The notes below the pieces were generated by a model, which saw only the letters and a list, made by a program, of their open reading frames with translations, did not search any database and was not told where the DNA came from. Position numbers and translations under genes: made by a program. Shown here in pieces: positions 14,858 through 49,504 of a stretch of 64,000 bases of DNA. The stretch's first letter is position 1. Every line of letters starts with the position of its first letter. Source of the DNA: an uncultured Carboxylicivirga sp. (GTDB taxonomy: Bacteria; Bacteroidota; Bacteroidia; Bacteroidales; Marinilabiliaceae); NCBI GenBank assembly GCA_947503525.1, contig CANNEA010000009.1, forward strand, positions 1 through 64,000, given 5' to 3'.

Positions 14858-15640
14858 TTATTGATTCATCCAGTCTTTAAATTGTGAGGCCTTGGCTCTA
14901 CTTATCATTATTTTATCACCCAGATTATTCTGAAGTTTAACAACTAATTTTCCGCTAAAGTAAGTTTCAAAATGATCAATCGCTGCTTCATTAATTATTG
15001 TCTGTCTGTTGGCGCGAAAAAAATCCTGAGGATCCAGCTCCTCGTCTAATTTATCCAATGGCTGATTAATAACATGTTGACGTCCATCAAACCCAACCGC
15101 AAAAGTAACACGCGATTCAAAATAAAAATAAGCAATTTCCTCCACAGGCAGTTTAAAAAAGGCATCTCGTTTAGCTATCAAAAAACGCTTACGGTAACCT
15201 CCTTTTGAAGCCATAATTGAGTTGGCCAATTTTTGATAATTGATTTGGCTTTCCTTGTTGGATTCCATTTCAATTAGCTCCAATGCCCTTTCAAATTTAT
15301 CAATGGCTTTAAGCAAATCCACTTCCTTTACAGGTTTAAGGATGTAATCAATACTATTCAACTCAAATGCCTTAAGGGCAAATTCGTTATAAGCCGTTGT
15401 AAAAACGACGGGGCTCTCAACTTTCACCTGTTCAAAAATCGAAAAGCAATTACCATCAGCCAACTCTATATCAAGAAATATCAGGAAAGGCTCCTCATTA
15501 TTTTCTAACCAAAGTACCGTTTCCTTGATACTTTGAAGTATAGCAACAACATGCCATTCAGGACGTAATTCCTGAACCATATCCCGTAACATTTTAGCAG
15601 TATGAAGCTCGTCTTCAACAATGATAATATCTCTTTTCAT
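14858..15640 (-). CDS. LytTR-family response regulator (RND cassette 1)
   Basis: This is a 260-aa response regulator. The receiver domain (1-120) has the acidic pair Glu9/Asp10 and phospho-acceptor Asp57 in FLIFLDIELADG, with the conserved Thr and Lys in VVFTTAYNEFAL and YILKPV. The LytTR DNA-binding domain lies at about 150-258 (KRFLIAKRDAFFKLPVEEIAY, RANRQTIINEAAI). It starts 5 bp downstream of the partner kinase stop, so the two are surely co-transcribed. It is the last gene of a same-strand block that begins with an RND adaptor. The block therefore suggests that it controls the pump or an adjacent envelope regulon (inference). The paralogue at 48734-49504 has the same architecture. Confidence 0.93.
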   Translation of the reverse strand: MKRDIIIVEDELHTAKMLRDMVQELRPEWHVVAILQSIKETVLWLENNEEPFLIFLDIELADGNCFSIFEQVKVESPVVFTTAYNEFALKAFELNSIDYILKPVKEVDLLKAIDKFERALELIEMESNKESQINYQKLANSIMASKGGYRKRFLIAKRDAFFKLPVEEIAYFYFESRVTFAVGFDGRQHVINQPLDKLDEELDPQDFFRANRQTIINEAAIDHFETYFSGKLVVKLQNNLGDKIMISRAKASQFKDWMNQ

Positions 15641-15645
15641 CCCAC

Positions 15646-16668
15646 TTAAATTAAAGGTAATTCAACACTAAATTTATTCTCCGATTGCTTTATCTCAACT
15701 TTTCGATCAGTAAGAAAGCTCATACGTTGCTTTAAGTTTGATAATCCGGTATTGGTTGAATAGGTCGATTTCTTTAAGTTGATAGTGTTGGTCACATTTA
15801 AAGAATCATTATGCCCTACTATCTCCAACACTAATGGTCTCTCTTCTGTGGCAATATTGTGCTTTATGGCATTTTCCACCAAAAATTGCAAACTTAATGG
15901 CGGTAAGTGTTTGGAATATAATGCTTCACTTACATCCAAAACTAAATCTAGTCCTTTTCCAAGCCGCTCTTTATGCAATGCCAAATACGAATTAATAAAA
16001 ATCAATTCATCATGTAGTTTTATGGAAACATTGTTTTTGCTTTCCAATACATAGCGGTAAACATCTGAAAAATTCTCAGCAAATCGAATAGCTGCCTTTT
16101 GATCCTGACGAATAATGGCAATTAATGTACTTAAATTATTAAATAGAAAATGTGGATTTACCTGATCCTGAAGCGCCCTATAATCTGCTTTTAGCTTCTC
16201 TTGCTTTAACCGTTCATTCTCAATTCTGAATGCCCCCAAGCTCTGATGATAATTATGAGCAATAAGTAATACAACATACATGGCAATAAACAAAAGAGCC
16301 ATCACTAAACTTAAAGCAAAATTAGCTTCATTCAATTCTGCTTTTTTTTCAAATAGGGGTTTAAATTGGTAAGCCAAAAAGGCTACAAATGAGAACCAAA
16401 ATGCAGAAAATCCAATTAACAAGATAAATCGAAGGGGGCTTTCATCATGCCATGAATACTTACGACTAAGTAATTTATTAAATGCAAAAATACCCTCAGA
16501 TATAGAAACAAAAATACAAATTGTAAATATTAAGGCTTCCCAAACATATGGCTTATCTGCATATAAAGTAAACGAAAAAAGCGAATAAAAAATTACTCCA
16601 ATTAATATTTCAAATAATAGGCGACTTCTGTCATTATAAAAAAATAGTGGAGTTGTTGCTTTAAGCAT
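15646..16668 (-). CDS. LytS-type sensor histidine kinase (RND cassette 1)
   Basis: This membrane histidine kinase is 340 aa from the ATG at 16668. A longer form starting at a GTG at 16701 adds 11 residues but is less likely. About four transmembrane helices fill residues 15-145, followed by a short coiled coil. The His_kinase domain has the canonical motif VNPHFLFNNLSTL (His173), and the HATPase domain has QFLVENAIKHN and TGLSNLKQRM. It lacks a periplasmic sensor domain, so it probably senses through its membrane helices, for example membrane stress or pump substrate (inference). The stop lies 5 bp before the response regulator, and the TolC-like gene ends 43 bp upstream of the alternative start. 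Confidence 0.9.
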   Translation of the reverse strand: MLKATTPLFFYNDRSRLLFEILIGVIFYSLFSFTLYADKPYVWEALIFTICIFVSISEGIFAFNKLLSRKYSWHDESPLRFILLIGFSAFWFSFVAFLAYQFKPLFEKKAELNEANFALSLVMALLFIAMYVVLLIAHNYHQSLGAFRIENERLKQEKLKADYRALQDQVNPHFLFNNLSTLIAIIRQDQKAAIRFAENFSDVYRYVLESKNNVSIKLHDELIFINSYLALHKERLGKGLDLVLDVSEALYSKHLPPLSLQFLVENAIKHNIATEERPLVLEIVGHNDSLNVTNTINLKKSTYSTNTGLSNLKQRMSFLTDRKVEIKQSENKFSVELPLI

Positions 16669-16744
16669 AATTAATCGTTTTATCAATCTAAAGGTAAGCA
16701 CTTATATTTCATTTTCAAGATACCTTCTTCAAATCTTCTATACA

Positions 16745-18100
16745 TCAGGTATCACTACGCAATAGACCTACGCCTTTGTAGTAGGTTGTTTTAGCAATTT
16801 CGTAATTGGCTAATGCTTCCAATAAACCAGCCTGAGCTCTTTGCCAACTGGCTTGTGCATTAAGTAAATCCGTCGTTGTATTTAAACCATTCTCATAACT
16901 TAAAACAACTTCCGACAAACTTTCTTCTGCTTCAACTTTACCTTTTTTTGCCAATACTATAGCATCATAAGATTCTGTTAGTTGGAGCATATATTGTTGT
17001 ACTTCAAGCTGCACCAACTCACTGGTTTCATCCAATTTAATTTGTGCCTGCTGCTGCTGGTAACGTGCGGCATCCATTTTATGTTTTTTTTCACCCCAGT
17101 GTATAATTGGGATAGACAGTCGAGCGGAGGCCGTAGTTTGATAACTACCGCTGATTAGATTTGGAACCTCGGTATAACCATATGCCACCTGGGCACCTAA
17201 ACTCGGACGATATTGAGCAGCAACTGTTTTTTTCTGAAGTTCAGATATGGCAACCTGTCCGTTTAAAATATGTAATTCATTACGATTGTTAAGAGCCATA
17301 TTTAAGGCATTATTTAAGTTTATCATTTCCGGATCATTGTTCAAATCTTCCACAACATTAAGCTCAGTATTTAAAGGCAAACCAATCGTTTGACACAAAT
17401 TCATTTGCATAAGTGTATATCCATTTTTTGCACGAACCAGATTGAGTTCGGCTTCATTTTTTTGAACGCTAACCTTGAGTTGCTCACTCTTGGGTACTAA
17501 GCCAATGTCATACATAACTTTTAATTGCTGTTCTAAAGAATCAAGCATCTCGACATACTTATTGGCAACCTTAATATTTTCCTTTAGTGCTACCACTTGC
17601 CAATAAACAACATCGGTGTTTAAAACAACCTGATCTGATTCCAACTGGTATGCGTTGGTAGCAATTTCCAGTCCTTTATCTGCCATTTTATTAGCATACC
17701 TAATTTGTCCTCCCGCGTAAATCGGTATTTGCATACCAAGCTGTGCCTGAAAAATTCTTAGGCGCTCAGTCTCCAATTTCATACCAGGAAAATAAACATC
17801 ACTTACACCAGTGATATTGCCATCTGTATCAGCAGTTGGCAAATGAAATCCCGGAACTTCAACATCATCCAACTGAGGTAAAAACATTGCGGTACCCGTT
17901 CCATCAATCATAGGTAAATAAGCCGTTCGCGCTTGCTTTCGATTGGCTTCGGCTTCCTTCAACTGAAGATCTGAAATCTTTAAAGTCTTATTGTATTCCA
18001 ATGCCATGGTTCGACATTGCTCTAAGGATAACTGTTCCTGTCCACGAGAACTAACTGTGAGTAGCAAAAGCCCTGTAATAATTATATATGATAATCGCAT
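16745..18100 (-). CDS. TolC-family outer-membrane efflux channel (RND cassette 1)
   Basis: This 451-aa outer-membrane efflux protein has a signal peptide at 1-20 (ending SSRGQ) and begins with the typical LSLEQCRTMALEYNKTLKISD. Two duplicated OEP halves of long coiled-coil helices and short beta strands follow (about 25-235 and 240-448). TolC landmarks include AYLPMIDG at 58-65, YRPSLGAQVAYGY near 300 and NGLNTTTDLLNAQASWQRA near 405-425. It forms the outer-membrane trimer of the tripartite pump. It follows the RND permease gene by 38 bp on the same strand and is itself followed by the LytS/LytTR pair. Confidence 0.92.
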   Translation of the reverse strand: MRLSYIIITGLLLLTVSSRGQEQLSLEQCRTMALEYNKTLKISDLQLKEAEANRKQARTAYLPMIDGTGTAMFLPQLDDVEVPGFHLPTADTDGNITGVSDVYFPGMKLETERLRIFQAQLGMQIPIYAGGQIRYANKMADKGLEIATNAYQLESDQVVLNTDVVYWQVVALKENIKVANKYVEMLDSLEQQLKVMYDIGLVPKSEQLKVSVQKNEAELNLVRAKNGYTLMQMNLCQTIGLPLNTELNVVEDLNNDPEMINLNNALNMALNNRNELHILNGQVAISELQKKTVAAQYRPSLGAQVAYGYTEVPNLISGSYQTTASARLSIPIIHWGEKKHKMDAARYQQQQAQIKLDETSELVQLEVQQYMLQLTESYDAIVLAKKGKVEAEESLSEVVLSYENGLNTTTDLLNAQASWQRAQAGLLEALANYEIAKTTYYKGVGLLRSDT

Positions 18101-18138
18101 TGTATTATTTCTTTGATTTGTAATAAATGATGAACTCC

Positions 18139-21100
18139 TTACTCTACTGAGGTCGTATTATCAACATGAGGTTCACTTTCCTGACCATGAAGTGATTTTG
18201 TCTCCACTTTATAAAACATGGCGTACAGAACAGGCACAATTATTAAAGTAATTACTGAACCTATAAGTAATCCAAACATTATGGCCACCGCCAAACTTGC
18301 AAACATCCTGTCCCAAAGTAGTGGTAACATTCCTAATATGGTTGTTAAGGAAGCCATCATAACCGGACGTACCCTGGATATGGTTGAATCTATGATTGCA
18401 TTTAGTTTATCTTTTCCGCTTTTTATTTGAATGTTGATTTCGTCGAGCAGAACAACAGCATTTTTAATCATCATACCCATTAAACCTAATGAACCAACCA
18501 TAGCAAAGAAGGTGAAATAGGTACCTGTGAAAAGAAAGCCAAATATGACTCCAATAAAAGCCAAAGGCACCAACATGAATATTATAATGGGTTGTTTGAA
18601 ATTATTAAACAACCCAATGATGATGATCAGCATCAATAATACAGCTAGTGGGAAATTTTGCATTAAGCCCTCATTGGCTTCATTGCTACTCTTGTATTCA
18701 CCCAACCATTCCAACTCATATCCTTCAGGTAAAGGAATCGCTTCAACCTTGTTTTTTAGCAACGGAAATAATTCACTTCCAGAATACCCTGGCGCCGGAT
18801 CACATTGCACTTTTATTGCACGCTGTCCATTGTAGTGCATTATTCTGTTATTTGCCCATTGCACCTCGATAGAATCAACCAACTGAACAAGAGGAACACT
18901 CGTTGGCAAACCTGACCATACAGGTATTGAATTTAACTGAGTGACATCATTATCCAATGTAGTATTTAATTTAAGCATGACAGGCAATTGGTATTCGCCA
19001 TCATAAAACACACCAACAGGAGCTCCATTTGAAGCTATTGCTAATGCCTGTGCAACATCCTGTCGGTTAACCATTAGTTCACGCGCACGAACCTTAGAAT
19101 ACAATGGTGTTAAAACTTTTACATCATTTTTCCAATTATCTGTTACAAATCGGGCCATTGGTTCCGCCCTCATAATTGCTTTGGCCTCTTCAGCTAAATG
19201 CTTAAGTACCTTTTCATCTTTACCCGTAAACTTAGCTTCAACTATAAACTCACCGCCTACTGCCAAATACTCCTTTACCCTGGCAAAGGCCTGTGGGTAA
19301 TTTTCATCAACAAGAGTCTGCAATTGCTCCATGGTTTCGGGCAAACGTTCTCTATCCTTAACACTTATAATTAGTTCGCCATAACTTAAGCTTAAGCCAT
19401 TCACCGGACGCAGCAAAGTGTAACGCGCAGGTGTACTGCCTAATCCGGTTACCACAAAATTAATATTGTCCCATTGTTCCACTTTCTTTTGCAGTTCATC
19501 CAGATCCATCTCCACCTGCTTCATATCAGCTCCTTCAGGTAAACGATACTCCAGTATAAACTGATCGTAATTGGCAGCCGGGAAGAAATTTTGTTTCACC
19601 TGACCAAAGAGCATAAATGAAAGTATCAATACAATAATTGTTGAAATGGTAAACAAAGACTTATGCCACAATGAAAATTGTAATAGCTTTTTGAAAAGGC
19701 GATAAAACCCTCCCGAATATGGATCTTTATTCTCCTCATTGTTTTGTTTAGCTTTTCCTTTAGTATAAAAATACTGCGCCATAAAAGGCGTTTGAACCAT
19801 AGCCAGCAGCCAACTCACAAATAAGGAAATAGCCAATACAAAAAACAAGGATTTTAAGAATTCACCTGCCATTGTATTATTAAAGCCAAGCGGCATAAAT
19901 GCCAGAATAGCAACAAAGGTTGCTGCCAACAACGGCATTGCCGATTTCTTTGCTGTACTGACAAAAGCCTTACTTCGCTTAACGCCTTTTTTTAAGTCAA
20001 TTAATATACCATCGGCTACTACAATTGCATTATCCACCAGCATACCCATGGCAATAATAATGGCTGCCAGTGATACACGGTGTAACTCAATATCCATGGC
20101 ACTCATCACAATAAAAGTTCCCAGAATAGTAAATACCAAACCACTGGCGATAAGCAAACCTGCTTTGGCTCCCATAAAAACCAATAATACTGCTATTACG
20201 ATAATAACCGACATTGCCAGGTTGACCATAAAATCACTAATGGCTTCATCTACTTTTTCATGCTGGTAAAAAATAGGATGGTAATCTATACCTGCCGGTA
20301 AATCTTGCTGCAATTCATCCAATCGCTTCTCAAGACTTTCACCCAACTCAATAATGTTACCACCTTTCTCCATTGAAATAGCCAAACTAATCGCTTCTTG
20401 GCCATTAAACTTCAGTTTTTGCATTTCCGGTTCATAAAATGCTCTTTCAACTTTAGCTATTTCTCCCAAACGGTATCTACCTCCGTTAGGTAGAAGCACC
20501 TCAAAATCCTTTATCTCATCTAAATCCTGAAACTTATTTCCAATATCAAGTCGGATACGCTCGCTTCCGGAAACAAAACTCCCTGGATTAACGGTTACAC
20601 CCTGATCATTAAATAACTGAAAAATCATTAAAGGATTGATGCCAAGAGAAGCGAAATATTCGTTGTCGAAACTGATATTTATAACTTCCGTTTTTTTACC
20701 AAACACTTCTATTCGCTTCACTCCATCCACAATCAGCAACTCCTCCTTCACGAAATCAACGTAATGTTGGAATTCATTATAAGAATAACCGTCATTACTA
20801 ATGGCTAGAAATATACCTGACACATCACCAAAATCATCATTGACAATTGGCTCTCCAGCTCCCTGAGGCAGATTACCCTTCACATCATTAACTTTTCTGC
20901 GCAGGTGATCCCAAAGCTGTGGCATCTCATCCGTAGTAACATGTGTCTTAATATTAATTGTGATTTCCGACATCCCGGCAATAGATCTGGACTCAATAAA
21001 ATCTATATTCTCCAATCGCTGCACGGCTTTTTCTAATACCTCAGTCACTTCATGTTCCACCTCTTCAGCTGAAGCACCAGGATAAGGTGTAATTATCATT

Positions 21101-21228
21101 GCACTTTTAATCGGAATTTCCGGGTCTTCCAGTTTACCCATCCCATTAAAAGAATATAATCCTCCCAACACCAGAGCAACAAAGAAAAAGCTTAAAAAGG
21201 CTTTTTGATTTAAAATTTTATCTAACAT
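18139..21228 (-). CDS. RND efflux transporter permease (RND cassette 1)
   Basis: This 1029-aa inner-membrane pump of the HAE1/AcrB superfamily has the usual length and layout: TM1 at 10-28, a first periplasmic loop (about 35-335), TM2-7 (336-530), a second loop (about 545-850) and TM8-12 (855-1010). The TM4 motif is GMLVDNAIVVAD (395-406). Here Asp399 occupies the first position of the AcrB Asp-Asp pair and Asn400 the second, a variant seen in many RND pumps and likely still proton-coupled. The substrate cannot be read from sequence. It lies between the adaptor (11 bp upstream) and the TolC-like gene (38 bp downstream). The C-terminal tail (about 20 residues) is polar and probably cytosolic. 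Confidence 0.95.
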   Translation of the reverse strand: MLDKILNQKAFLSFFFVALVLGGLYSFNGMGKLEDPEIPIKSAMIITPYPGASAEEVEHEVTEVLEKAVQRLENIDFIESRSIAGMSEITINIKTHVTTDEMPQLWDHLRRKVNDVKGNLPQGAGEPIVNDDFGDVSGIFLAISNDGYSYNEFQHYVDFVKEELLIVDGVKRIEVFGKKTEVINISFDNEYFASLGINPLMIFQLFNDQGVTVNPGSFVSGSERIRLDIGNKFQDLDEIKDFEVLLPNGGRYRLGEIAKVERAFYEPEMQKLKFNGQEAISLAISMEKGGNIIELGESLEKRLDELQQDLPAGIDYHPIFYQHEKVDEAISDFMVNLAMSVIIVIAVLLVFMGAKAGLLIASGLVFTILGTFIVMSAMDIELHRVSLAAIIIAMGMLVDNAIVVADGILIDLKKGVKRSKAFVSTAKKSAMPLLAATFVAILAFMPLGFNNTMAGEFLKSLFFVLAISLFVSWLLAMVQTPFMAQYFYTKGKAKQNNEENKDPYSGGFYRLFKKLLQFSLWHKSLFTISTIIVLILSFMLFGQVKQNFFPAANYDQFILEYRLPEGADMKQVEMDLDELQKKVEQWDNINFVVTGLGSTPARYTLLRPVNGLSLSYGELIISVKDRERLPETMEQLQTLVDENYPQAFARVKEYLAVGGEFIVEAKFTGKDEKVLKHLAEEAKAIMRAEPMARFVTDNWKNDVKVLTPLYSKVRARELMVNRQDVAQALAIASNGAPVGVFYDGEYQLPVMLKLNTTLDNDVTQLNSIPVWSGLPTSVPLVQLVDSIEVQWANNRIMHYNGQRAIKVQCDPAPGYSGSELFPLLKNKVEAIPLPEGYELEWLGEYKSSNEANEGLMQNFPLAVLLMLIIIIGLFNNFKQPIIIFMLVPLAFIGVIFGFLFTGTYFTFFAMVGSLGLMGMMIKNAVVLLDEINIQIKSGKDKLNAIIDSTISRVRPVMMASLTTILGMLPLLWDRMFASLAVAIMFGLLIGSVITLIIVPVLYAMFYKVETKSLHGQESEPHVDNTTSVE

Positions 21229-21239
21229 GTTCTACTCGC

Positions 21240-22289
21240 TTAAAGATTATTCTTTTCCAAAATTCTTACTTCCTGATTGTCCTGAAGGCTATTGACACCG
21301 GCACTTACAATCCACTCATCTCCATTCAAGCCTTTCGACACTAACATTTGTCCCTCGTTAGAAAAAGAATCGATATTAATCTCTCGCTTTTGAACTACCG
21401 AATTACTTTGATTATAAATCCAAACATATGTTTTACCATCCTTATTAAAAATGGCTTCGAGAGGCACTGTAGCATTGTTTTCATTGCCTTTTGGCAATTC
21501 AACTTTAACCTTAACAGACATCCCAGGTTTAATACTGTTAATATTCATATTATCAATCTGCAATCGAACATCAAACATATCATTGCCATTGGCTTTTTCA
21601 TTGACTGAAATGAGTTGGGCAGGAATATTCTCAAGTCCGACGTTTGGAACATCACAGCTGATGCTTTTGTAGGTATTAACTATATCCAATTGGCGCTCGG
21701 ACAAACTAAAGTGTACTTCTAGCTGGCTAACATCCAGTAGAGAAATAATAGCTTGACCAGGCCCAACGTTTTCAAATTTTTGAACCTCTCGTTTGTACAC
21801 ATATCCAGAGAAAGGAGCTCTTAGTTCGGTATCGTTTAAAGCATTATTTGCTCTTTCGTACCCACTCTCAGCTGACAAATATCCAGCTTCTAACTTCTCA
21901 AGCGTATTAGCAGGTAGTTTCTTTTGCGCATACAACTCTTTATATCGCTTATATTCACCTTCAATTTGTTTGAACTGCGCCTCAGCCGATTGTAATTGAA
22001 TGATATAATCGCGCTTATCAATTTGAGCGATAACATCACCTTTTTTAACAAAATCACCCTCATCTACCAACAGTTCCATCACCTGGCCTCCAACTTTAAA
22101 AGCCACTTTTACATCTCGCTTTTCGCTAAGTTGGCCATTAAATAGATTTGTTTCATTATTAGTTGATGCTTTGGGTTGCACAACTTTTACGAAGCGCTTT
22201 TTATGCTCCATTTTTTGATTTTCATTGCTACATGCAGAAAAAAGAACTGCTATCACAAGAAGTATTGTAGAGGTTAATTTTGTTTTCAT
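21240..22289 (-). CDS. RND periplasmic adaptor lipoprotein (RND cassette 1)
   Basis: This is a membrane-fusion protein. Counting from the ATG at 22289 it has 349 residues and a lipoprotein signal ending in LFSAC, with Cys20. In-frame alternatives are the ATG at 22295 and a GTG at 22313. The 22289 start is chosen because it gives the standard basic n-region MKTK. A biotinyl-lipoyl half (KVGGQVMELLVDEGDFVKKG), a short alpha-hairpin (about 95-150), the second lipoyl half (DTELRAPFSGYVYKREV) and beta-barrel/MP domains follow. It links the inner-membrane RND pump to the TolC-like channel and heads the block that ends with the LytTR pair. Confidence 0.9.
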   Translation of the reverse strand: MKTKLTSTILLVIAVLFSACSNENQKMEHKKRFVKVVQPKASTNNETNLFNGQLSEKRDVKVAFKVGGQVMELLVDEGDFVKKGDVIAQIDKRDYIIQLQSAEAQFKQIEGEYKRYKELYAQKKLPANTLEKLEAGYLSAESGYERANNALNDTELRAPFSGYVYKREVQKFENVGPGQAIISLLDVSQLEVHFSLSERQLDIVNTYKSISCDVPNVGLENIPAQLISVNEKANGNDMFDVRLQIDNMNINSIKPGMSVKVKVELPKGNENNATVPLEAIFNKDGKTYVWIYNQSNSVVQKREINIDSFSNEGQMLVSKGLNGDEWIVSAGVNSLQDNQEVRILEKNNL

Positions 22290-22463
22290 GATCATTTTTT
22301 TGATGTATTCCACGTTATATTTTAAGCAAATCTAGCTGTATGTGTGAGGTCAAATTGAATAAAATGCAGGAAGCGGCAGATATGATGCACCAAGCAGTTG
22401 AAATTTGGTTTGAGTGAGCTATTTATTCATGAATTGAACGAGCTAAAAGCTGTTTTTTAGGCA

Positions 22464-23366
22464 TTAATAAAAGTTTCGCATCTGTGGTTTGATACAAATT
22501 CCAACACGAACCATCGAACTGTATTGTGAATAGTCTTTCATACTTTCACCATAGCCACTATACCATTGCAAAAACAAATATTGATTTGGTTTTATATTTG
22601 GCCTGAAATTGACTTCAACAGTTGTGTTAAGCGATTTAAACTTTTCGCTTGGATTAAGCACAACACTTGCCCAAAATCTATCGTCTCGACTTCTGTAATT
22701 CAATGCCACCAACCCATGTCCTCGATATTTTAACAAATCCTTATTCTCATCCCCAAGCCATCCCGCCCATAGTTTGGTCTGAATCGAAAAATTAGCATTA
22801 TAAAAATAGACACCGGAAATTGTAATGTAGTTCCAGCTTCGCGAATCAAGAGAATCCAATCCATTTGATTCATGTTCGACTGAAATTGAAGCAATACCTT
22901 TCAGTAAGTCATTTCTTATGATAGGACGCATAATGGTTAATCCTGGATTATAGTTATTATCAGCAAATGGTGAAGAGTTTTTATAAATATCCCAGAAGGA
23001 TTTTTGAGTATACGTTAAAAATAAGGTTGATTTAAAAGGAAGTACAGACTTTGTTAATCGCTGACTTATACTAATCTGAAATTTAGCATCAGCTGTATTC
23101 TCCGAAATCTCCTTATTAGTAGGGATACCACTAACGAAGTAATTATCATGAAACATGTTAAAACTCGGTTGATTATCCAGAAGTTCAAATAATTCCTCGT
23201 TTGTTATTTTCAGGAAAGTCCGCTTTTTAAAATCAAGAGAATCTGAACCTTTCTGACTTTCCCACATTGATTTTAATTCCTTAGTTTGTCCAATAGACTG
23301 TATTGAACTCAGAGTAAAAAGTACCAACATTGGCAGTGATAACCTTTTTTGATAATTCTTTTTCAT
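22464..23366 (-). CDS. pldA: Outer-membrane phospholipase A (OMPLA)
   Basis: This 300-aa protein has a signal peptide (about 1-26) and the catalytic signature of OMPLA. His165 and Ser167 lie in VEHESNGL, and Asn179 in SRSWNY completes the His-Ser-Asn triad. The C-terminal strand motif YSGYGESMKDY matches the E. coli enzyme closely (YSGYGESLIDY). It forms a 12-stranded barrel that dimerises with Ca2+ and removes acyl chains from phospholipids mislocalised to the outer leaflet. It lies 127 bp downstream of the AsmA-like gene on the same strand, consistent with a joint role in outer-membrane lipid balance (inference). It ends about 175 bp before the adaptor gene of RND cassette 1. Confidence 0.93.
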   Translation of the reverse strand: MKKNYQKRLSLPMLVLFTLSSIQSIGQTKELKSMWESQKGSDSLDFKKRTFLKITNEELFELLDNQPSFNMFHDNYFVSGIPTNKEISENTADAKFQISISQRLTKSVLPFKSTLFLTYTQKSFWDIYKNSSPFADNNYNPGLTIMRPIIRNDLLKGIASISVEHESNGLDSLDSRSWNYITISGVYFYNANFSIQTKLWAGWLGDENKDLLKYRGHGLVALNYRSRDDRFWASVVLNPSEKFKSLNTTVEVNFRPNIKPNQYLFLQWYSGYGESMKDYSQYSSMVRVGICIKPQMRNFY

Positions 23367-37038: not shown

Positions 37039-37071
37039 TCACTCGAATACTAAAACATTAAAACTCATATT

Positions 37072-37761: not shown

Positions 37762-37766
37762 GTAAA

Positions 37767-41745: not shown

Positions 41746-41763
41746 GCTCAACATGAGCGCTCA
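41746..41763. promoter_or_regulatory. Three clustered GCTCA/TGAGC half-sites
   Basis: GCTCA (41746-41750), TGAGC (41754-41758) and GCTCA (41759-41763) form two overlapping inverted repeats. One is the 12-bp palindrome ATGAGCGCTCAT at 41753-41764. They lie between the divergent hydrolase and RND adaptor genes and are a possible operator. No matching regulator is identified. Confidence 0.4.
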
Positions 41764-41949
41764 TTAATGATAATTCCACTACCAATTCATAAGATAGATC
41801 AAAGCATTTTAGAGCAGAATCGCATCGTTTATTTTTCAGGTTTCATCCATCCATTTTTCGGCTTCATCCTCTTTTTGTTTAGCAATAAAATATAAGCTGC
41901 AATTTTTGGAGTATCGTTTAGTTGAACAAGAAAAACATAACATAAAACC

Positions 41950-43056
41950 ATGAAAAAACTTATCATTATCGCAGTTAGTTTGGCAGTTGTTTTTGGCGGG
42001 GTATTCGCCGTTAAAGCGTTTACTCCTGAAAAGAAAACACAAGACAAAGAGATCGTAAAAAAAGGAATGCTTGTTGATGTGATGTACCCCGAGATTGGTG
42101 ACATTGAATATACTTATAGCGCCACTGGAAAAATAAGGGCAGTTGATCGTTTCGAAATATTCGCTCAGGTTGAAGGTCAACTTCTTCCAACCAGCACACG
42201 ATTTAAAGAAGGAATTACTTATAAGAAAGGCGAAATAATTCTTGAAGTTGACCAAAGGGAATATAACATGAGTTTATTAGCTCAGAAAAGTGACTTCATT
42301 ACACTTATTACATCAATTCTTCCTGATATCAAATCAGATTATCCTGATTCATATTCTACATGGAAAAACTATGTGCTTGAGTTAGACGTCAATGAATCAC
42401 TGGTTGATATCCCGGAGCCAAAGAGTGAACAAGAGAAGTTTTACTTGTATGGCAAAGGCATATATAAAAACTATTATAATGTGCGATCGGGAGAAGAAAA
42501 ACTACTAAAGTACACAATCAGAGCTCCTTTTAACGGAGTTGTATCTTCGGTTAGTGCTGAAGCGGGTACGGCAGTTCGCTCAGGATCGGAACTCGGCACA
42601 TTACTTAGTAATGAAGCTTATGATCTTGAAATTACGATCCCCCTCTCTTCCATGGGTAAAATTAGCGTTGGCACTCAGGCCAAACTGCACTCCACAGAAA
42701 TAGATACTGAATGGACCGGTAAAATAGTTCGCATTGGCGGAGATATAGATGAGCAATCACAAAGTGTAAAATTGTTTATCCGCACCAGTGGAAAAGAACT
42801 AAAGGAAGGCATGTATTTAACTGCCGACATTCAACAAGCTCCATTTTTGGGTACAATGAGTTTACCGCGCAAAATGATAAATGATCAGGACCAGCTTTAT
42901 ACAGTAGATAACAATCAACTTAAACAAATACAGGTTGAAGTATTGGCTCGCCAGGGCGATATAGCAATCATTAAAGGAATTGATGAAGGCACCGCTGTAC
43001 TTTCAACAGTTGTTAAAAGTGCTTATGATGGCATGCCGGTTAGATTAAATCAGTAG
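41950..43056 (+). CDS. RND periplasmic adaptor (RND cassette 2)
   Basis: This 368-aa membrane-fusion protein has an uncleaved N-terminal helix or signal (1-24, LIIIAVSLAVVFGGVFAV) but no lipobox, unlike the lipoprotein adaptor of cassette 1. The first lipoyl half is near 62-100 (FAQVEGQLLPTSTRFKEG), an alpha-hairpin at about 100-175 is helix-rich, and the second lipoyl half (YTIRAPFNGVVSSVSAEAGT) is near 192-211. Beta-barrel and MP domains follow to the end. It is the first gene of the plus-strand block of adaptor, pump, channel, kinase and regulator. Confidence 0.9.
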   Translation: MKKLIIIAVSLAVVFGGVFAVKAFTPEKKTQDKEIVKKGMLVDVMYPEIGDIEYTYSATGKIRAVDRFEIFAQVEGQLLPTSTRFKEGITYKKGEIILEVDQREYNMSLLAQKSDFITLITSILPDIKSDYPDSYSTWKNYVLELDVNESLVDIPEPKSEQEKFYLYGKGIYKNYYNVRSGEEKLLKYTIRAPFNGVVSSVSAEAGTAVRSGSELGTLLSNEAYDLEITIPLSSMGKISVGTQAKLHSTEIDTEWTGKIVRIGGDIDEQSQSVKLFIRTSGKELKEGMYLTADIQQAPFLGTMSLPRKMINDQDQLYTVDNNQLKQIQVEVLARQGDIAIIKGIDEGTAVLSTVVKSAYDGMPVRLNQ

Positions 43057-43128
43057 TCCAAATATATTATTTACAAGCTGCAATGAATTACGGATTGGCT
43101 GAAGATGGCCAACTTCAAAACAACAGTA

Positions 43129-46100
43129 ATGAAAAAACTTATTAGCTACTTTATAAAATTCCCCTTAGCGGTTAACCTGGTTATGGTTATGGCTTTTTTA
43201 CTTGGCCTATTATCACTAAATGGAATACAGAAAAACTTCTTCCCCAATGTAGGAAAACGCTTCATTTATGTAGACATACTTTATCCCGGTGCATCTCCTG
43301 AAGAAATTGAAGAAGGCGCCATTCTAAAAATTGAAGAGAACGTAAAAGGTCTTGAAGGCATGGAGCGTATCACTTCTGTTTCGAGAGAAAACAGTGGTTC
43401 TGTTTCAATTGAAATGCTGAAAGGCACCGATATGGATGAAGCCTTGATTAAGGTAAAGAACGAGGTTGAAAAAATTGCTTCTTTTCCGGTGGGAATTGAA
43501 TCGGTAACCACTTATAAGCATGACGATGTAAACTTTGCAATGAATTTTGTAGTTACTGCACGTGATGGTAAAACGGTTGATTTAAAAACTTTAAAGGAAA
43601 CAGCCAGAGAAATTGAGCATGATTTACTGCGCTTAGATGGCGTATCTAAAATAGAAATAGGTGGTTACCCCGACGAAGAAATTGCTGTACTACTAAAAGA
43701 GAACGCTATGGAGGCCTACCAAATGACCTTCAATGAAGTGGCTCAGGCGGTGGCGTCCAGCAATATAATAATGACTGGTGGAAGCATAAAAGATGGTAGT
43801 GAAGAATTTTTCATTAGGGTACGTAACAAGGCCTATCAGAGCGAAGGATTAGAAGACATTGTCATCCGTCAAACAGAAAGTGGCGGGATCATTCGTTTAA
43901 AAGATGTTGCTACTCTTAGCGACCGCTGGGCCGACACGCCTTCTGAGGTCAGATACAATGATGAAAAAGCAGTAGTGATAACAATTAGCAATACGTTTAG
44001 TGAAGATATTGTTAAAGCCACCGATGCAGTTAAAGCTTATATTTCAGATTTTAATTCCAGTCAAGATTATCTCGAAGCAGAGGTAATTCGAGACATGAGT
44101 AAGACACTGAACCAACGTATTGATCTGCTTCTGAATAATGGTATCGTAGGTATTTTGTTAGTCTTGCTATTTCTATCCTTATTCTTAAATCCCCGTGTAG
44201 CATTTTGGGTAGCGGTAGGTATTCCTTTCTCCTTCTTAGGCATGTTTATTTTCCTACCGGGCACAGTGGTTACGATAAATATGCTGTCGCTATTTGGCCT
44301 TATTCTCGTACTGGGAATATTAGTTGATGATGCCATTGTTGTAGCCGAGAATATATACCGACATCGCCAGTTGGGTAAAAATCCAATTAAAGCGGCTGTT
44401 GACGGCACTTTAGAGGTTACTCCTGCGGTACTCTCTGGTGTATTAACCACCATGTTGGCTTTTTCTACCTTCATTTTTCTTGATGGAAGTATGGGCGATA
44501 TGTTTAAGGAAATATCTATTGTGGTCATCTTAATTCTTTTTGTATCACTAATTGAAGGCTTAATTATATTGCCTGCACACATGGCTCACTCCAAAGCTTT
44601 AACTCCCGACAGTGGTAGTCAATGGAAAAAATACATGGGTTGGGCGGAAGCAGGATTATTGAAGTTCAGAAGCATCGTTTATAAACCTTTATTACGAACG
44701 GCTATAAACCATAAAGTCACAACCGTCTTTGTGTTTGTTGGGATGTTTGTTTTATCCATTAGCATGCTTAGAACCGGTATTGTAGGAAGTACATTTTTTC
44801 CGGAAGTTGAGGGCGATGATTTTACAATTTCATTAACTATGCCATCGGGTACAGATGAGTCGGTAACTCAGCGACAATTAGATAAAATATCAGCGGCTAT
44901 ATGGTCTGTTAATGAGGATATGCGAGAGTTTCAACCCAATAAAGCCGATATCATTGATCAAACCTTTCAACAGTTTATGGGTAGCGGAAGTAGTGCAACT
45001 ATGCAAGTTACTTTGTTAGATTCTGAAATACGCGATACACCAACCTCTGAAGTCATAAGCAATATTCGTAAAAAACTGGGAGATATTCCCGGTGCTGAAG
45101 GATTGGAGTTTGCCGCTTTTAATCCATTTGGAAAAGCTTTAAAAATATCACTTTTAGGTGATGATAATGATGTTCTTCAAAAAGCTAAAGAAGAACTCAA
45201 ATTGGAGCTACAAAACATGCCTGAGTTAAGTGATGTAACCGATAATTCGCCAATTGGTTATCGTGAAATAGAAGTTGAACTAAAGCCTAAAGCACATCAC
45301 CTTGATGTTACACTTCAAGACGTAATATCGCAAGTGCGTGAAGCCTTCTTCGGAAATGAAGTACAGCGTTTGCAGCGTGGAAAAGATGAAGTAAAAGTAT
45401 GGGTAAAATATAGTGATGACAACAGAACTTCAATCGGACAGTTGGAAAACATGAAGATTCGCCTGAATAATGGAATTGCTTATCCTCTTTCAGAACTGGC
45501 TACTTTAAAAACGGTTAATGGCGTTGCAAATATAAGTCATCTTGATTTTGACCGCGAAGTACAGCTCGAAGCCAACCAAACTGATCCTACCTCTTCACTG
45601 CCTTTAATATTAGGGAAGATTGAAAAGGAGGTTCTGGTTGATTTATATGCCAAATACCCCGGAATAGTAGCGTCATATGATGGTCAAAAACGCGAAAGTG
45701 ATAAGGTGTTGAACTCAGCTTCAACAGTCATTCCAATCATTTTATTACTCATGTTTGCAATTGTTATTTTCACGCTTCGATCGGTTAGTCAATCTGCATT
45801 GGTTTACCTAATGATACCATTGAGTTTAGTTGGTGTTATTATAGGCCATTGGATTCACGGAATGAGTTTTAGTTTGATGTCAGCCATGGGTGTCATTGCT
45901 CTGGTTGGTGTAATGATCAATGATGGTTTGGTTTTAATTAATGGTTTTAACATCAACCTCAAAGAAGGCATGCCTTTAAAAGAAGCCTTATTCGAGGCTG
46001 GCATATCGCGTTTTCGTCCTATTCTTTTAACCACCTTAACAACCATAGCCGGAATGGCGCCAATGCTTTTAGAAACCAGTATGCAGGCTAAATTCCTAAT

Positions 46101-46293
46101 TCCTATGGCCATCTCGTTATGTTATGGTATGGCAATGGCGACAACCACAACCTTATTTCTTCTTCCTGTATTACTGTTATCAGTTAATAGTTTTAAGGTG
46201 AAGTTTAACACATTAATCCTAGGTAAAAAAGTGAGCAGAGAAGAAGTTGAATCTGCAATTAAAGAAATGAAATATCAGTATGAAGACAATTAA
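43129..46293 (+). CDS. RND efflux transporter permease (RND cassette 2)
   Basis: This is an inner-membrane RND pump of 1054 aa from the ATG at 43129. An in-frame ATG at 43105 adds eight residues. Topology is standard: TM1 (about 14-35), large periplasmic loops, and TM4 with GILVDDAIVVAEN in which the proton-relay Asp pair (Asp400/Asp401) is intact, unlike the Asp-Asn of cassette 1. The second half ends in a polar tail (VESAIKEMKYQYEDN). Its 3' end overlaps the TolC-like gene by 14 bp, so the two are translationally coupled. Confidence 0.95.
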   Translation: MKKLISYFIKFPLAVNLVMVMAFLLGLLSLNGIQKNFFPNVGKRFIYVDILYPGASPEEIEEGAILKIEENVKGLEGMERITSVSRENSGSVSIEMLKGTDMDEALIKVKNEVEKIASFPVGIESVTTYKHDDVNFAMNFVVTARDGKTVDLKTLKETAREIEHDLLRLDGVSKIEIGGYPDEEIAVLLKENAMEAYQMTFNEVAQAVASSNIIMTGGSIKDGSEEFFIRVRNKAYQSEGLEDIVIRQTESGGIIRLKDVATLSDRWADTPSEVRYNDEKAVVITISNTFSEDIVKATDAVKAYISDFNSSQDYLEAEVIRDMSKTLNQRIDLLLNNGIVGILLVLLFLSLFLNPRVAFWVAVGIPFSFLGMFIFLPGTVVTINMLSLFGLILVLGILVDDAIVVAENIYRHRQLGKNPIKAAVDGTLEVTPAVLSGVLTTMLAFSTFIFLDGSMGDMFKEISIVVILILFVSLIEGLIILPAHMAHSKALTPDSGSQWKKYMGWAEAGLLKFRSIVYKPLLRTAINHKVTTVFVFVGMFVLSISMLRTGIVGSTFFPEVEGDDFTISLTMPSGTDESVTQRQLDKISAAIWSVNEDMREFQPNKADIIDQTFQQFMGSGSSATMQVTLLDSEIRDTPTSEVISNIRKKLGDIPGAEGLEFAAFNPFGKALKISLLGDDNDVLQKAKEELKLELQNMPELSDVTDNSPIGYREIEVELKPKAHHLDVTLQDVISQVREAFFGNEVQRLQRGKDEVKVWVKYSDDNRTSIGQLENMKIRLNNGIAYPLSELATLKTVNGVANISHLDFDREVQLEANQTDPTSSLPLILGKIEKEVLVDLYAKYPGIVASYDGQKRESDKVLNSASTVIPIILLLMFAIVIFTLRSVSQSALVYLMIPLSLVGVIIGHWIHGMSFSLMSAMGVIALVGVMINDGLVLINGFNINLKEGMPLKEALFEAGISRFRPILLTTLTTIAGMAPMLLETSMQAKFLIPMAISLCYGMAMATTTTLFLLPVLLLSVNSFKVKFNTLILGKKVSREEVESAIKEMKYQYEDN

Positions 46294-47611
46294 ATATATT
46301 CTAAGCATTAGCCTAATGCTCGCTCTTGCAAAGCTAAATGCCCAGGAACAAATTGAGCCAACAGATAAAATATCTTTATCAAGAGCCGTTGAGATAGCAA
46401 TGCTAAATAACTATGATTTAAAAATTGCTACCAACGAGTTAAAAAAGGCAGATAACAGCAATTCAATTGGTAATGCGGGTTTGCTGCCTTCACTGACGCT
46501 CAATGGTGGATTCGATTATGGCTTTAACGACACTGAAATGGAATTTGCAGGAGGAGATTCCGAAGTCATCAAGATAGATAATGCAGAATCATTTACTTAT
46601 AGTGGAAATGTACGAATGGACTATACACTGTTTGATGGTTTTGGCAATGTGTATACTTACAAAAAATTGCAAGGACAAAATGAGCGACAGCAAACACTTT
46701 TCCGACAGCAAACCGAACAAACCATTGTTGAGGTGGCAGAAAAATATTACGAAGTTTGCCGTGCTCAACAAAACCTGAATTTGGCGAAAAAATCAATGGA
46801 AATTTCTCGTGAAAGAGTTCAAAAAGCCATCCATAAAAAAGCCTATGGGCAAGCCAATCAATTGGATGTTTTAAATGCTGAAGTGGACATGAATTCAGAT
46901 AGCACCATCATCTTACAAACGGAACAAGCATTTCTGCGTTCCATTAAGGACCTGAATGTGGTACTTGGCGTTGATGTTCAAACCGAATACCAAGTGGATG
47001 ATGCCATTAACTTTAGAGATGATTTTACAGCTGACGCGGTAATAAGTGGAGCCATGCTTAATAATTCGGGAATGATTGCTCAAGAGCAACAAGAAGACAT
47101 TTCTAATTTGGATCTTAAAATTACCAATGCTCAAAAATACCCGACGCTTTCAGCCTATGGTCAGTATGGTTATAACAGGCAAAACAGTGATGCCGGACAA
47201 GTTTTATACAATCAAAATTTAGGTACATCGGCAGGTCTATCTCTTAAATTTAACGTATTTAACGGCAGGCAGCAGCGTACAAAAGAAAAAAATGCGATGT
47301 TGGATTTAAACTCACAACAAGAGCGTAGTCTTCAGTTAAAATCTGAGCTGGAACGTGATGCAACCAATGCCTATACCGATTACATTTATAAACGTCGTAT
47401 CGCTGAATTACAAGAAACAAGTGTAAAACAAGCTCAACTTAATTTTGAACAAACACAAGAAATGTATGAACTCGGAAGAGTGACTTCAATTGAGTTTCGT
47501 ACGGCACAACAAAACTTGTTGGATGTTGCTGCTAATTTTAATGATGCAAGATTTACGGCCAAAGTTGCTGAGTTTTACCTCATGCAATTAACAGGTGAAT
47601 TGATCAACTAA
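46280..47611 (+). CDS. TolC-family outer-membrane efflux channel (RND cassette 2)
   Basis: This 443-aa outer-membrane channel has a signal peptide at 1-21 (ALAKLNAQ). The first OEP half begins at KISLSRAVEIAMLNNYDLKI and the second includes YPTLSAYGQYGYNRQ (near 290) and ELGRVTSIEFRTAQQNLLDV (about 397-416). It starts 14 bp inside the RND permease gene and is followed, after an 86-bp gap with a palindrome, by the LytS/LytTR pair. Confidence 0.92.
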   Translation: MKTIKYILSISLMLALAKLNAQEQIEPTDKISLSRAVEIAMLNNYDLKIATNELKKADNSNSIGNAGLLPSLTLNGGFDYGFNDTEMEFAGGDSEVIKIDNAESFTYSGNVRMDYTLFDGFGNVYTYKKLQGQNERQQTLFRQQTEQTIVEVAEKYYEVCRAQQNLNLAKKSMEISRERVQKAIHKKAYGQANQLDVLNAEVDMNSDSTIILQTEQAFLRSIKDLNVVLGVDVQTEYQVDDAINFRDDFTADAVISGAMLNNSGMIAQEQQEDISNLDLKITNAQKYPTLSAYGQYGYNRQNSDAGQVLYNQNLGTSAGLSLKFNVFNGRQQRTKEKNAMLDLNSQQERSLQLKSELERDATNAYTDYIYKRRIAELQETSVKQAQLNFEQTQEMYELGRVTSIEFRTAQQNLLDVAANFNDARFTAKVAEFYLMQLTGELIN

Positions 47612-47619
47612 ATGTAATG

Positions 47620-47635
47620 TCATATCTAGATATGA
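47620..47635. promoter_or_regulatory. 16-bp perfect palindrome between TolC-like and kinase genes
   Basis: TCATATCTAGATATGA is a perfect inverted repeat 9 bp after the TolC-like stop and 62 bp before the kinase start. It has no T-run, so it looks like a protein-binding site or small hairpin and not a terminator. Confidence 0.4.
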
Positions 47636-47697
47636 ATGCCAAGAAAGAGCTTAATAAAACATTTTGCGTAATTTGCAATGTCGACTAAAACAGCAAT

Positions 47698-48741
47698 ATG
47701 ATCAACTTAAAAACCAAATATAAATTTTTACTGGTACCGTTTATTACCTTCTTGCTGGCATTCATATCTATCATGTTAATGATTTTATTTGAATACCGTA
47801 GTTTTGAAGATTTTAATCAAATGCCGTTTGATCGAATGATTGTATCATTCTTTGAAACTCTGATATTGGTATTTATTTATAATTTCTTTGTTCGCAAGTT
47901 TAACCGCTTTATGCCCTGGAAAAAGAGCTGGCTACTTAGATTCTTACTTGATTTATTGCTGGTTGTATCCTTTACTTCAATAGTTATTTTTACTGTTAAT
48001 ACTGCTCTTAAATTAGGCTTCATACCAGAACATGATGGTCATCAACAAAAACACTTTTTACTCTATATCATACCACTATTTGTTAGTTCTCTTTTCCTGC
48101 TTATTGTTGAAATGATTATCGAATTGGAAGAACGCAACGCAATGGAACATAAGATCTCAGCATTGGAGAAAGAACAATTAAACACCAAGTACAGTGCCCT
48201 AAAAGAGCAACTTGATCATCATTTCTTATTTAATAATCTAAGTGTACTATCATCACTTATATACGAAAGCACCGAAAAAGCAGATAAATTCATACAAGAC
48301 TTTGCTGCCATATATAGGTATGTTCTTTCAATTAACAAACAAGATTTGGTAACGCTTCAGGAAGAGTTGGATTTTATTAAAACCTATTTAAACTTATATA
48401 AATTTAGATTTGAAGAAGGACTTTCATACAGGCTAGTAAACATTGATACGAACAGTAAACACAGATTGCCTCCTCTAACACTTCAACTATTGGTAGAAAA
48501 TGCAATTAAACACAATATAATGTCACGCAATGAGCCGCTCAATATTGAAATTTACATAGATGAAAATGCACTAATTGTAGCTAACAATTTGCAAATTAAA
48601 AGTGATGTTCCGTCTACAACAACCGGACAAAGTAATCTGGTTGAGAAATACCTGCTACTGGGGCAAAAGGCTCCTGAATTTAAAATTGAGAACGACTATT
48701 ATTCTGCACGTATTCCACTAATTGAACCCACCAATGATTAA
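47698..48741 (+). CDS. LytS-type sensor histidine kinase with altered H-box (RND cassette 2)
   Basis: This 347-aa membrane kinase has about four TM helices over 10-142, a linker coiled coil (145-170) and the His_kinase/HATPase region (170-345; QLLVENAIKHN near 262). The usual NPHFLFN box is changed to LDHHFLFNNL: the acceptor His175 is present, but the preceding Asn-Pro is Asp-His. The cassette 1 kinase keeps the canonical NPHFLFN. The C-terminal G-box is also short (STTTGQSNLVEKYLLL). The protein may still signal, but it is a divergent member. It overlaps the response regulator gene by 8 bp. Confidence 0.88.
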   Translation: MINLKTKYKFLLVPFITFLLAFISIMLMILFEYRSFEDFNQMPFDRMIVSFFETLILVFIYNFFVRKFNRFMPWKKSWLLRFLLDLLLVVSFTSIVIFTVNTALKLGFIPEHDGHQQKHFLLYIIPLFVSSLFLLIVEMIIELEERNAMEHKISALEKEQLNTKYSALKEQLDHHFLFNNLSVLSSLIYESTEKADKFIQDFAAIYRYVLSINKQDLVTLQEELDFIKTYLNLYKFRFEEGLSYRLVNIDTNSKHRLPPLTLQLLVENAIKHNIMSRNEPLNIEIYIDENALIVANNLQIKSDVPSTTTGQSNLVEKYLLLGQKAPEFKIENDYYSARIPLIEPTND

Positions 48742-49504
48742 AGTATTAATTGTAGAAGATGAAATGCCATCTGCACGTAAGCTGAAGGCTTTTCTTGCGC
48801 AAATAGCACCTGATTTTGAAGTGGTTGAAATACTCGATTCGATTGAGCAAACCGTATCATATCTTGAAACAAATAAGGTTGATTTGATATTTTTAGATAT
48901 TCATTTATCTGATGGAAACAGCTTCTCCATTTTTGAAAAAACTGAAGTTAATACACCAATTATATTTACAACTGCATTCGATCAATATGCTATTCAAGCC
49001 TTTGAGCAAAACAGCATTGGCTATCTCCTTAAACCTATTGGAATAGATAAACTTAAAGGAGCTATTGAAAAATTCAGAGGCGGTATAGAAAAAAGAGCAG
49101 ATTCAGTCCAGGGAATTGATTACAACGTGTTAGGCCAAATTATTGCTCAACAGCAGAAACCCGAATATCGCGAGCGATTTATGGTGCACTTCAGAGGTAT
49201 GATAAAATCAATTGACATAAGTGAAGTGGCCTACTTCTTTGCAGAAAACCGTGCTGTATTTATTGTACTTTTTGATGGAAAAACCTATGATTTAAGCATG
49301 ACATTAGAACAGTTGGAATCAGAACTTAATCCGAAAATATTTTACAGGGCAAACCGAAAATTTATTGTTTCTATCAAAGCCATTAAAGAGGCAGTTGTTT
49401 ATTCTAAAAATAAACTCAAATTACATCTTAAACCTGAATCAACTAGTGATGTAATTATTTCCACCGAGAAAGCTTCAAAGTTTAAGCATTGGCTGGCTGG
49501 GTAA
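48734..49504 (+). CDS. LytTR-family response regulator (RND cassette 2)
   Basis: This response regulator has 256 aa from the ATG at 48734. The frame extends to a TTG at 48722, but MIKVLIVEDE is the proper receiver start. The acidic pair is Glu8/Asp9 and the phospho-acceptor is Asp55 in LIFLDIHLSDG, with Thr in IIFTTAFDQYAI and Lys in YLLKPIG. The LytTR DNA-binding domain is at about 150-255 (YRERFMVHFRGMIKSIDISE, YRANRKFIVSIKAI). It overlaps the kinase gene and ends the five-gene block. It is clearly paralogous to the cassette 1 regulator over its full length. Confidence 0.93.
   Translation: MIKVLIVEDEMPSARKLKAFLAQIAPDFEVVEILDSIEQTVSYLETNKVDLIFLDIHLSDGNSFSIFEKTEVNTPIIFTTAFDQYAIQAFEQNSIGYLLKPIGIDKLKGAIEKFRGGIEKRADSVQGIDYNVLGQIIAQQQKPEYRERFMVHFRGMIKSIDISEVAYFFAENRAVFIVLFDGKTYDLSMTLEQLESELNPKIFYRANRKFIVSIKAIKEAVVYSKNKLKLHLKPESTSDVIISTEKASKFKHWLAG

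Follow-up and report, generated by a model that had tools for sequence, protein, structure and literature searches.

Two RND efflux cassettes of identical gene order, their LytS-LytTR switches and a predicted operator in an uncultured Carboxylicivirga

Two cassettes with one gene order

We analysed the first 64 kb of contig CANNEA010000009.1 (36% GC; 'the window' denotes this whole stretch) from the 6.56-Mb assembly GCA_947503525.1 of an uncultured Carboxylicivirga sp. Two cassettes in it, here called A (minus strand) and B (plus strand), each encode an adaptor, an RND permease, a TolC-like channel, a LytS kinase and a LytTR regulator in this order, as a first-pass annotation made from the sequence alone had described; open reading frames (ORFs) and Pfam agree on it (Table 1). 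The spans given there, 14858-22289 and 41950-49504, fit the ORFs, with position 22289 being an in-frame ATG and the A adaptor ORF opening at GTG 22313, and all ten proteins, taken at the ORF coordinates of that annotation, match the expected Pfam families. In both cassettes an adaptor (HlyD-type), an AcrB-family permease (PF00873) and an OEP channel (PF02321) are encoded together as the set of a tripartite RND efflux pump, both adaptors scoring above the TIGR01730 cut-off, while the kinase-regulator pair (the switch) consists of a PF06580 kinase with HFLFN and a regulator with receiver and LytTR domains. The genes are spaced as tightly as had been claimed: the gaps in A are 11, 38, 43 and 5 bp in gene order, and B has gaps of 48 bp (adaptor/permease) and 86 bp (channel/kinase) and overlaps of 14 bp (permease/channel) and 20 bp (kinase/regulator). 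Such close packing points to a single transcript for each cassette.

The differences in detail that had been pointed out between the cassettes are real. The A adaptor has a lipobox-like FSAC, in keeping with a lipoprotein, and none was found in the B adaptor, which would be anchored in the membrane. In transmembrane helix 4 (TM4) the A permease reads VDN (Asp-Asn) and the B permease VDD (Asp-Asp); among the orthologs compared, VDN is present in 16/16 A permeases and VDD in 10/10 B permeases, and the difference tracks RND clades whose pumps occur both with and without a switch. The kinase H-box is the canonical NPHFLFNN in A; in B it is altered to DHHFLFNN, and both retain the His that precedes FLFN. 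The altered box occurs in all 12 B-type kinases and so represents a fixed character, not decay. Residues D13, D59, T83 and K104, with the receiver Asp and Lys among them, are invariant across 12 aligned regulators. Between A and B, sequence identity is 23% for the permeases, 41% for the regulators and 43% for the catalytic parts of the kinases.

Table 1 Genes of cassettes A and B and their predicted promoter elements (TM, transmembrane helix)
Feature	Position	Strand	Basis
Cassette A periplasmic adaptor, probable lipoprotein	21240..22313	(-)	GTG start, HlyD-type match, lipobox-like motif
Cassette A RND permease	18139..21228	(-)	PF00873; nearest solved relatives MexK, TriC; TM4 Asp-Asn, TM10 Lys
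Cassette A TolC-like outer-membrane channel	16745..18100	(-)	Pfam PF02321
Cassette A LytS-type kinase	15646..16701	(-)	Pfam PF06580; about four hydrophobic segments; H-box NPHFLFNN
Cassette A LytTR response regulator	14858..15640	(-)	Pfam match, aligned residues
Predicted LytTR operator, cassette A: half-sites TTGGTGCA and TTCCTGCA, period 21 bp	22365..22393	(-)	Conserved repeat in orthologs
Cassette A promoter, predicted -7 box TAGATTTG	22327..22334	(-)	59 bp after operator start
Cassette B periplasmic adaptor	41950..43056	(+)	N-terminal hydrophobic anchor; lipobox not found
Cassette B RND permease	43105..46293	(+)	PF00873; TM4 Asp-Asp; TM10 Asn at the position of Lys in A
Cassette B TolC-like channel	46280..47611	(+)	PF02321; 14 bp overlap with permease gene
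Cassette B LytS-type kinase	47698..48741	(+)	PF06580; H-box DHHFLFNN
Cassette B LytTR response regulator	48722..49504	(+)	20 bp overlap with kinase gene
Predicted LytTR operator, cassette B: half-sites TTCATCCA and TTCATCCT, period 21 bp	41842..41870	(+)	Conserved repeat in orthologs
Cassette B promoter, predicted -7 box AATTTTTG	41901..41908	(+)	59 bp after operator start

Conservation of the cassettes

Across a survey sample of 40 genomes including the source genome (G labels denote genomes and L labels loci), the A and B regulators fall into one subfamily, with full-length members scoring at least 135 bits against the A regulator and all others at most 96 bits except three fragments. Outside the source genome, 102 regulator places reached 135 bits, of which the best 100 were fetched (G012:C4 and the truncated G013:C728 were omitted), and the neighbourhoods of 105 subfamily regulators were examined. 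The full gene order is kept at 16/17 A-type and 10/12 B-type loci and is therefore more than chance; the synteny in other Bacteroidota that the first-pass annotation had named as a check is present and supports a real module. The loci missing the full order are one A locus (G016) and one B locus (G013), both cut by a contig end, and the B locus of G015 (L120), at which the B-type kinase and regulator are retained, with the DHHF H-box intact, beside a permease remnant of 77 amino acids. The B-type regulator of G022 runs off its contig end and lies outside these counts. Two A loci show irregularities of their own: in G015 a small opposite-strand ORF sits inside the otherwise full order, and in G002, one of the 14 genus genomes, the permease is split over two reading frames (L091).

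A is present in all 14 genus genomes examined, and a B ortholog is absent from G001, G002 and G006. The two regulator genes are 33 kb apart in the window, ~200 kb apart in G015 and on separate contigs in the other relatives with both cassettes; in six of these (G003, G004, G007 and G010-G012) the contig ends put 40 kb or more between A and B. The proximity of A and B in the window is not a conserved feature.

A direct repeat upstream of both adaptor genes

Ahead of the adaptor gene, A orthologs share a direct repeat of approximately TTsaTrCA-N13-TTCnTrCA and B orthologs one of TTCAT-N16-TTCAT, both with a period of 21 bp. A scan of 15 A and 10 B sites that allowed only 59 or 60 bp between the first half-site and the -7 box returned 59 bp in 21/25 and 60 bp in 4/25. 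With any distance from 30 to 90 bp listed, 59 or 60 bp was found in nine of ten B loci (nothing was listed for L124), and separate repeat and box patterns gave 59-60 bp at all 11 A loci where both were found. The box reads NAnnTTTG in 23/25 sites; TAnnTTTG is the -7 consensus given for this phylum (PMC7366714).

The repeat was recovered by models from which the window's own sites had been left out. Over 466128 bp of the source genome, searched on both strands, the A model placed the A site first (30.2 bits) and the B site second (18.6 bits), and the B model placed the B site first (30.7 bits) and the A site at rank 41 at best among pooled top hits (11.5 bits). The two predicted operators are related but different, which bears on cross-talk, the scoring being one-sided in that the A model finds the B site. 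At pump loci, training sites included, 29 matches exceeded 20 bits, whereas the average over 32 wrong spacings was 0.03. A held-out A ortholog (L095) scored 29.2 bits at a site inside its called adaptor ORF, the start of which was probably set too early, and a held-out cassette of a different kind, with the channel gene first (L157), had two sites (25.1 and 21.7 bits). In 80 untrained loci, matches on the regulator strand outnumbered those on the opposite strand by 26 to 4 at >16 bits (mean 2.96, maximum 6 at 24 wrong spacings), 12 to 1 at >18 bits (mean 1.21, maximum 4) and 4 to 0 at >20 bits (mean 0.5, maximum 2).

Among other LytTR regulators, autoactivation is known to go with direct repeats of similar period that lie upstream of the promoter (PMC6193735), and the A and B repeats appear to agree with these activator sites in geometry. 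A repeat of ~21-bp period just upstream of the promoter, one mark of the LytTR operator class, was found for both A and B and only partly for 15 other cassettes. The 21-bp-period repeat at 59-60 bp from the -7 box in A and B orthologs appears to be new here. Neither such an operator nor an RND-LytS-LytTR cassette was found in the titles and abstract openings of the open-access papers listed, which is no proof that either is unpublished.

Descent of the pumps and of the switches

Trees were built for 49 permeases, 77 regulators, 74 kinases, 30 channels, 32 adaptors and 66 concatenated kinase-regulator pairs; eight long or outgroup rows were dropped by name from the pair tree and the split permease of L091 was excluded from the permease trees. 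Their deep parts are limited by long branches and by a quick method. A set of pump rows was classed as switch-free, by eye, if no subfamily regulator was nearby. One such row (L223) has a LytTR-domain fragment ~2.3 kb downstream. An A-like permease (44%) at G010:C61:31593-34607 has a fragment of this domain at 36870-37211, ~2.3 kb downstream, with similar fragments in G002 and G004.

By Pfam, the source genome encodes 12 intact RND permeases, two in pieces and some weak partial matches; its LytTR domains number 21. Among these loci are a third cassette, L007, with the order adaptor, RND permease, TolC-like channel, LytTR regulator and LytS kinase (the last two swapped), and pumps without a switch, two of them A-like (L008 and L009) and one B-like (L006). 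The permease, adaptor and channel trees agree in placing B as sister to the switch-free L006 and A with L111 and L113, then with L007-type cassettes, in a clade that also includes switch-free pumps. Forcing the A and B permeases into one clade cost 585 log-likelihood units and was rejected by the approximately unbiased (AU) test (p = 1.5e-36). Because the pump trees separate them and the AU test rejects their union, the A and B pumps do not appear to derive from one duplicated cassette. The comparison with solved structures likewise points to separate pump origins, since the A permease is nearest to MexK (532 bits), followed by the TriC-type structure 6vej (463 bits) and a next best at 246 bits, and MexK is not the nearest solved relative of the B permease.

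Within the A clade, an alternative grouping fails on the permease tree (p = 1.2e-6), and the switch data do not reject the permease grouping (p = 0.12). Reshuffling of pumps and switches within this clade was considered and set aside in view of that compatibility; joint descent stands, and A and L007 look like products of one ancestral unit. By these comparisons A's cassette relative within this genome is L007, not B. In an extended permease tree (45 rows, with seven further cassettes from named genomes added and eleven earlier rows, mostly near-copies, dropped), the label 'linked to this switch' changes eight times, gains and losses pooled, and at least seven of the changes are forced by supported branches.

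For the switches, the regulator tree recovers an A clade that includes seven of the eight other sampled cassettes (support 100/99) and places B elsewhere with non-pump members (84/87). The kinase tree alone leaves its backbone open.

Interpretation and alternatives

We consider it probable that A and B are autoactivated operons with separate origins, each built around a kinase-regulator pair from the same subfamily. Each cassette would be a single operon for a tripartite efflux pump and its own switch. By hydropathy alone, each of the nine kinases inspected has about four hydrophobic stretches within its first 150 residues, directly ahead of the H-box region. With some four membrane helices and no space left for an extracytoplasmic domain, the LytS-type kinase would therefore sense a signal in or at the membrane, or one relayed by the pump. 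It would then phosphorylate the LytTR regulator, which is predicted to bind the repeat 59-60 bp ahead of the -7 box and to activate the whole operon, its own genes included. Positive feedback would follow because the operator precedes the adaptor gene and the regulator gene comes last in the operon, as in other LytTR systems. The pumps fall in different RND subfamilies; each may have acquired its kinase-regulator pair from the switch subfamily separately, or a duplicated pair may have moved to a second pump. Different substrates for the two pumps are plausible, and export would presumably be proton-driven.

Several results weigh against this account. The branching order of the A and B switches is unsettled: a grouping of the A and B regulators was not rejected (p = 0.40), and the concatenated LytS and LytTR tree joins the A clade and B weakly (support 75). 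The 15 other RND cassettes scored at the adaptor promoter (eight from relatives and seven from named genomes, with 24 wrong-spacing controls each) gave a strong repeat in L157 only. Six of the 15 beat at least 23 of their controls (all 24 in L107, L108, L157 and L305; 23 in L319 and L338), L111 and L113 beat 22, and seven adaptor promoters (L007, L105, L112, L288, L300, L313 and L328) were no better than their 24 controls, as was the case for the kinase promoter of three switch-first cassettes. Given these mixed outcomes, the modelled repeat belongs to A and B orthologs and some other cassettes, not all. Loci without a pump are only mildly enriched, with 15 matches >16 bits in 70 loci compared to a control mean of 5.6 (maximum 13), and in the whole genome 25 operator matches with at most two mismatches were found versus 15 in a reversed control. 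Finally, the sites of the A orthologs are related by descent, and so are those of the B orthologs. By eye, several of the weaker cassettes read TTCAG...TTcGGT with the same spacing to a TTTG box (L108, L305 and L338, and also L288 and L313, which fail the control); half-sites may drift with the regulator. A search for the regulon in the source genome by means of the operator was discarded, as the pattern has too few defined bases (the 25 versus 15 matches above).

It is possible, if somewhat short of probable, that only the kinase-regulator pair was duplicated, in which case the A and B switches would be sisters and one copy would have been set behind a second, unrelated pump. The pair tree and the p value of 0.40 just cited would fit such a history, as would the TTCAT-like half-sites and equal geometry that the two operators have in common. 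The regulator tree alone, however, puts B among non-pump members (84/87), and the repeat geometry does not single out A and B because it is enriched across the wider subfamily.

An unlikely alternative concerns the repeat, which could be something other than a LytTR operator, or a repressor site, with the switch controlling other genes. L007 and six more cassettes without a clear repeat at the adaptor gene would accord with this, but the strand and spacing controls in the 80 held-out loci and the constant box distance in A and B orthologs argue otherwise, and the repeat resembles proven LytTR activator sites in its period and in where it lies ahead of the -7 box (PMC6193735).

That a single ancestral five-gene cassette was duplicated and its copies diverged to A and B, for which the identical gene order and the identities of regulators (41%) and kinase catalytic parts (43%) might speak, is highly improbable in view of three pump trees that part A from B with a switch-free pump beside B, the AU value of 1.5e-36 and an A permease far nearer to MexK than to the B permease. 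The ancestral module proposed in the first-pass annotation is hence not supported for the A and B pumps and does fit A and L007. Of the trees of five protein pairs named there as a check, those of the pump separate A and B, those of the switch do not settle their kinship, and together the topologies give no co-duplicated cassette; a shared A/B switch is possible, and a whole cassette does not seem to be shared.

If separate assembly around related switches is right, this look-alike pair offers a test case for convergent operon assembly, and the repeat rule may point to the genes under direct control of a common but little-studied class of regulators in Bacteroidota. The operator prediction, being testable, is the most useful product of the analysis.

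Comparison with known systems

MexK and TriC are the permeases of the Pseudomonas aeruginosa pumps MexJK and TriABC, and 6vej is a structure that we take to be TriC. MexK and 6vej carry Asp-Asp (VDD) in TM4, in contrast to the Asp-Asn (VDN) of the A permease and its cassette relatives; on this test the A permease is related to the MexK/TriC group and not a member of it. We know of no LytTR switch for the Pseudomonas MexJK and TriABC pumps.

RND pumps under two-component control include BaeSR-MdtABC, AdeRS-AdeABC and CusRS-CusCBA, in which, as in A and B, a kinase-regulator pair adjoins or controls a tripartite pump. BaeSR, AdeRS and CusRS comprise OmpR-type regulators and HisKA kinases with periplasmic sensors, whereas A and B have a LytTR regulator and a LytS-type kinase without room for a periplasmic sensor domain. 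BtsSR/LytSR-type systems share with A and B a PF06580 kinase and a receiver-LytTR regulator, but the A and B regulators score far below the NCBIfam cut-offs (90.9 and 91.8 versus 375 for LytR; 68.3 and 89 versus 246 for BtsR) and branch apart from seven other LytTR regulators of the source genome. Positive autoregulation was shown for HdrRM (PMC6193735), which, like the LRS-like operons of Bacteroides, is counted among the LytTR autoregulatory systems with direct-repeat operators. In HdrRM and the LRS-like operons, however, the regulator is paired with a membrane protein instead of a histidine kinase and a pump, and the half-sites differ.

Wider distribution of the switch

We examined a sample of named records comprising 80 of at least 591 confirmed loci. 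The same gene order was found in Marinilabiliaceae JC017 (L300), Draconibacterium (L305) and Plebeiobacterium (L319), and a switch-first order in Flavobacterium (L288 and L313) and Flectobacillus (L338); in a Thermochlorobacteriaceae genome (L328) adaptor and permease are followed by a 72-amino-acid ORF and then the switch. A close relative of the L313 regulator occurs in 39 of 299 genomes sampled from its genus at a strict threshold, a count of regulator matches that takes no account of gene context. At L289 and L314, a TolC-like channel, an adaptor, a 248-251-amino-acid protein and a 406-amino-acid protein precede LytS and the subfamily LytTR, possibly an ABC-type tripartite system under the same switch.

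A more general and rather doubtful proposal is that the subfamily, widespread in Bacteroidota and near relatives, acts as a plug-in control module attached separately to unrelated pumps and perhaps other transporters. Its parts would be the kinase, the regulator and the repeat-to-box geometry (a 21-bp repeat period and 59-60 bp up to the -7 box), while the half-sites would drift from pump to pump; its recipients would be the A clade, B, L157, the Flavobacterium and Flectobacillus cassettes and L328, and perhaps L289 and L314. As the kinase lacks an external sensor, either the pump or a lipophilic pump substrate located in the membrane would serve as the signal.

The same regulator subfamily has a recurring non-pump context, seen at L161, L163, L170, L175, L176 and L182, in which the regulator gene is followed by that of a kinase with the aberrant H-box NSHFMFNSLG, and then by genes for a 934-943-amino-acid protein and a 1006-1024-amino-acid protein. 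The shorter of these two proteins, in L170, resembles an M16 peptidase in its motif. At 14 further loci (L014:6189-6959, L165, L168, L169, L171, L173, L179-L181, L183-L186 and L188), most with two tandem LytS genes, the regulator-adjacent kinase reads NPQLLY, NPNLLY, NPDLLY or NPKLLY instead of NPHFLF. It is apparently a conserved pseudokinase, because the phospho-acceptor His is missing from the H-box.

In a co-culture evolution study of Flavobacterium johnsoniae (PMC10197871), each of the five lines carried a mutation in a LytTR gene, a histidine kinase gene or both. The LytTR gene at ~2.11 Mb of G136 has C at nucleotide 44 and G at nucleotide 46, and the adjacent kinase gene has G at nucleotide 496, fitting the published substitutions. 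We rejected this pair as a pump cassette, and hence as experimental support, since the surrounding 11 kb holds no pump gene; the regulators of the Flavobacterium cassettes L288 and L313 do not fit the published positions.

Other features of the window

A B-like repeat at 56281-56309 (-), with its box at 56243-56250, scored 21.2 bits and ranked second with the B-only model. It sits in a gap without a listed gene of at least 80 amino acids and is followed by ~170 nucleotides that end in a G+C-rich hairpin and a T run and fold better than 200 shuffles (z = -3.5). This stretch is a candidate for a small RNA transcribed from a LytTR promoter. In 19 other genomes it had no more than two matches, both short and partial, and Rfam had no match in the window. 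Scans for sigma-70-type promoters showed no excess over shuffles (26 versus 28.2 and 27 versus 28.4), and counts of terminator-like sites (9 versus 4.8, standard deviation 2.1, around A; 5 versus 5.4 around B) were not used.

Downstream of B, a conserved gene was looked for and dismissed, as the window has a kelch protein there and the two relatives viewed have a different protein, flavoprotein-like on reading its sequence. Directly upstream of cassette A lies a phospholipase A1 gene (Pfam; 22464-23366, minus strand). G003 (L089) has a similar-looking gene at 537-1472 upstream of A, and an operator-like site (22.3 bits, L089:166) further upstream, before a 91-amino-acid ORF; the phospholipase gene was rejected as a co-target of the operator, the corresponding repeat in the window scoring just 1.3. 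In seven other A loci (G004, G005, G007 and G009-G012) the phospholipase position is taken by a 193-amino-acid gene, the product of which, going by the two sequences viewed, presumably resembles deformylase.

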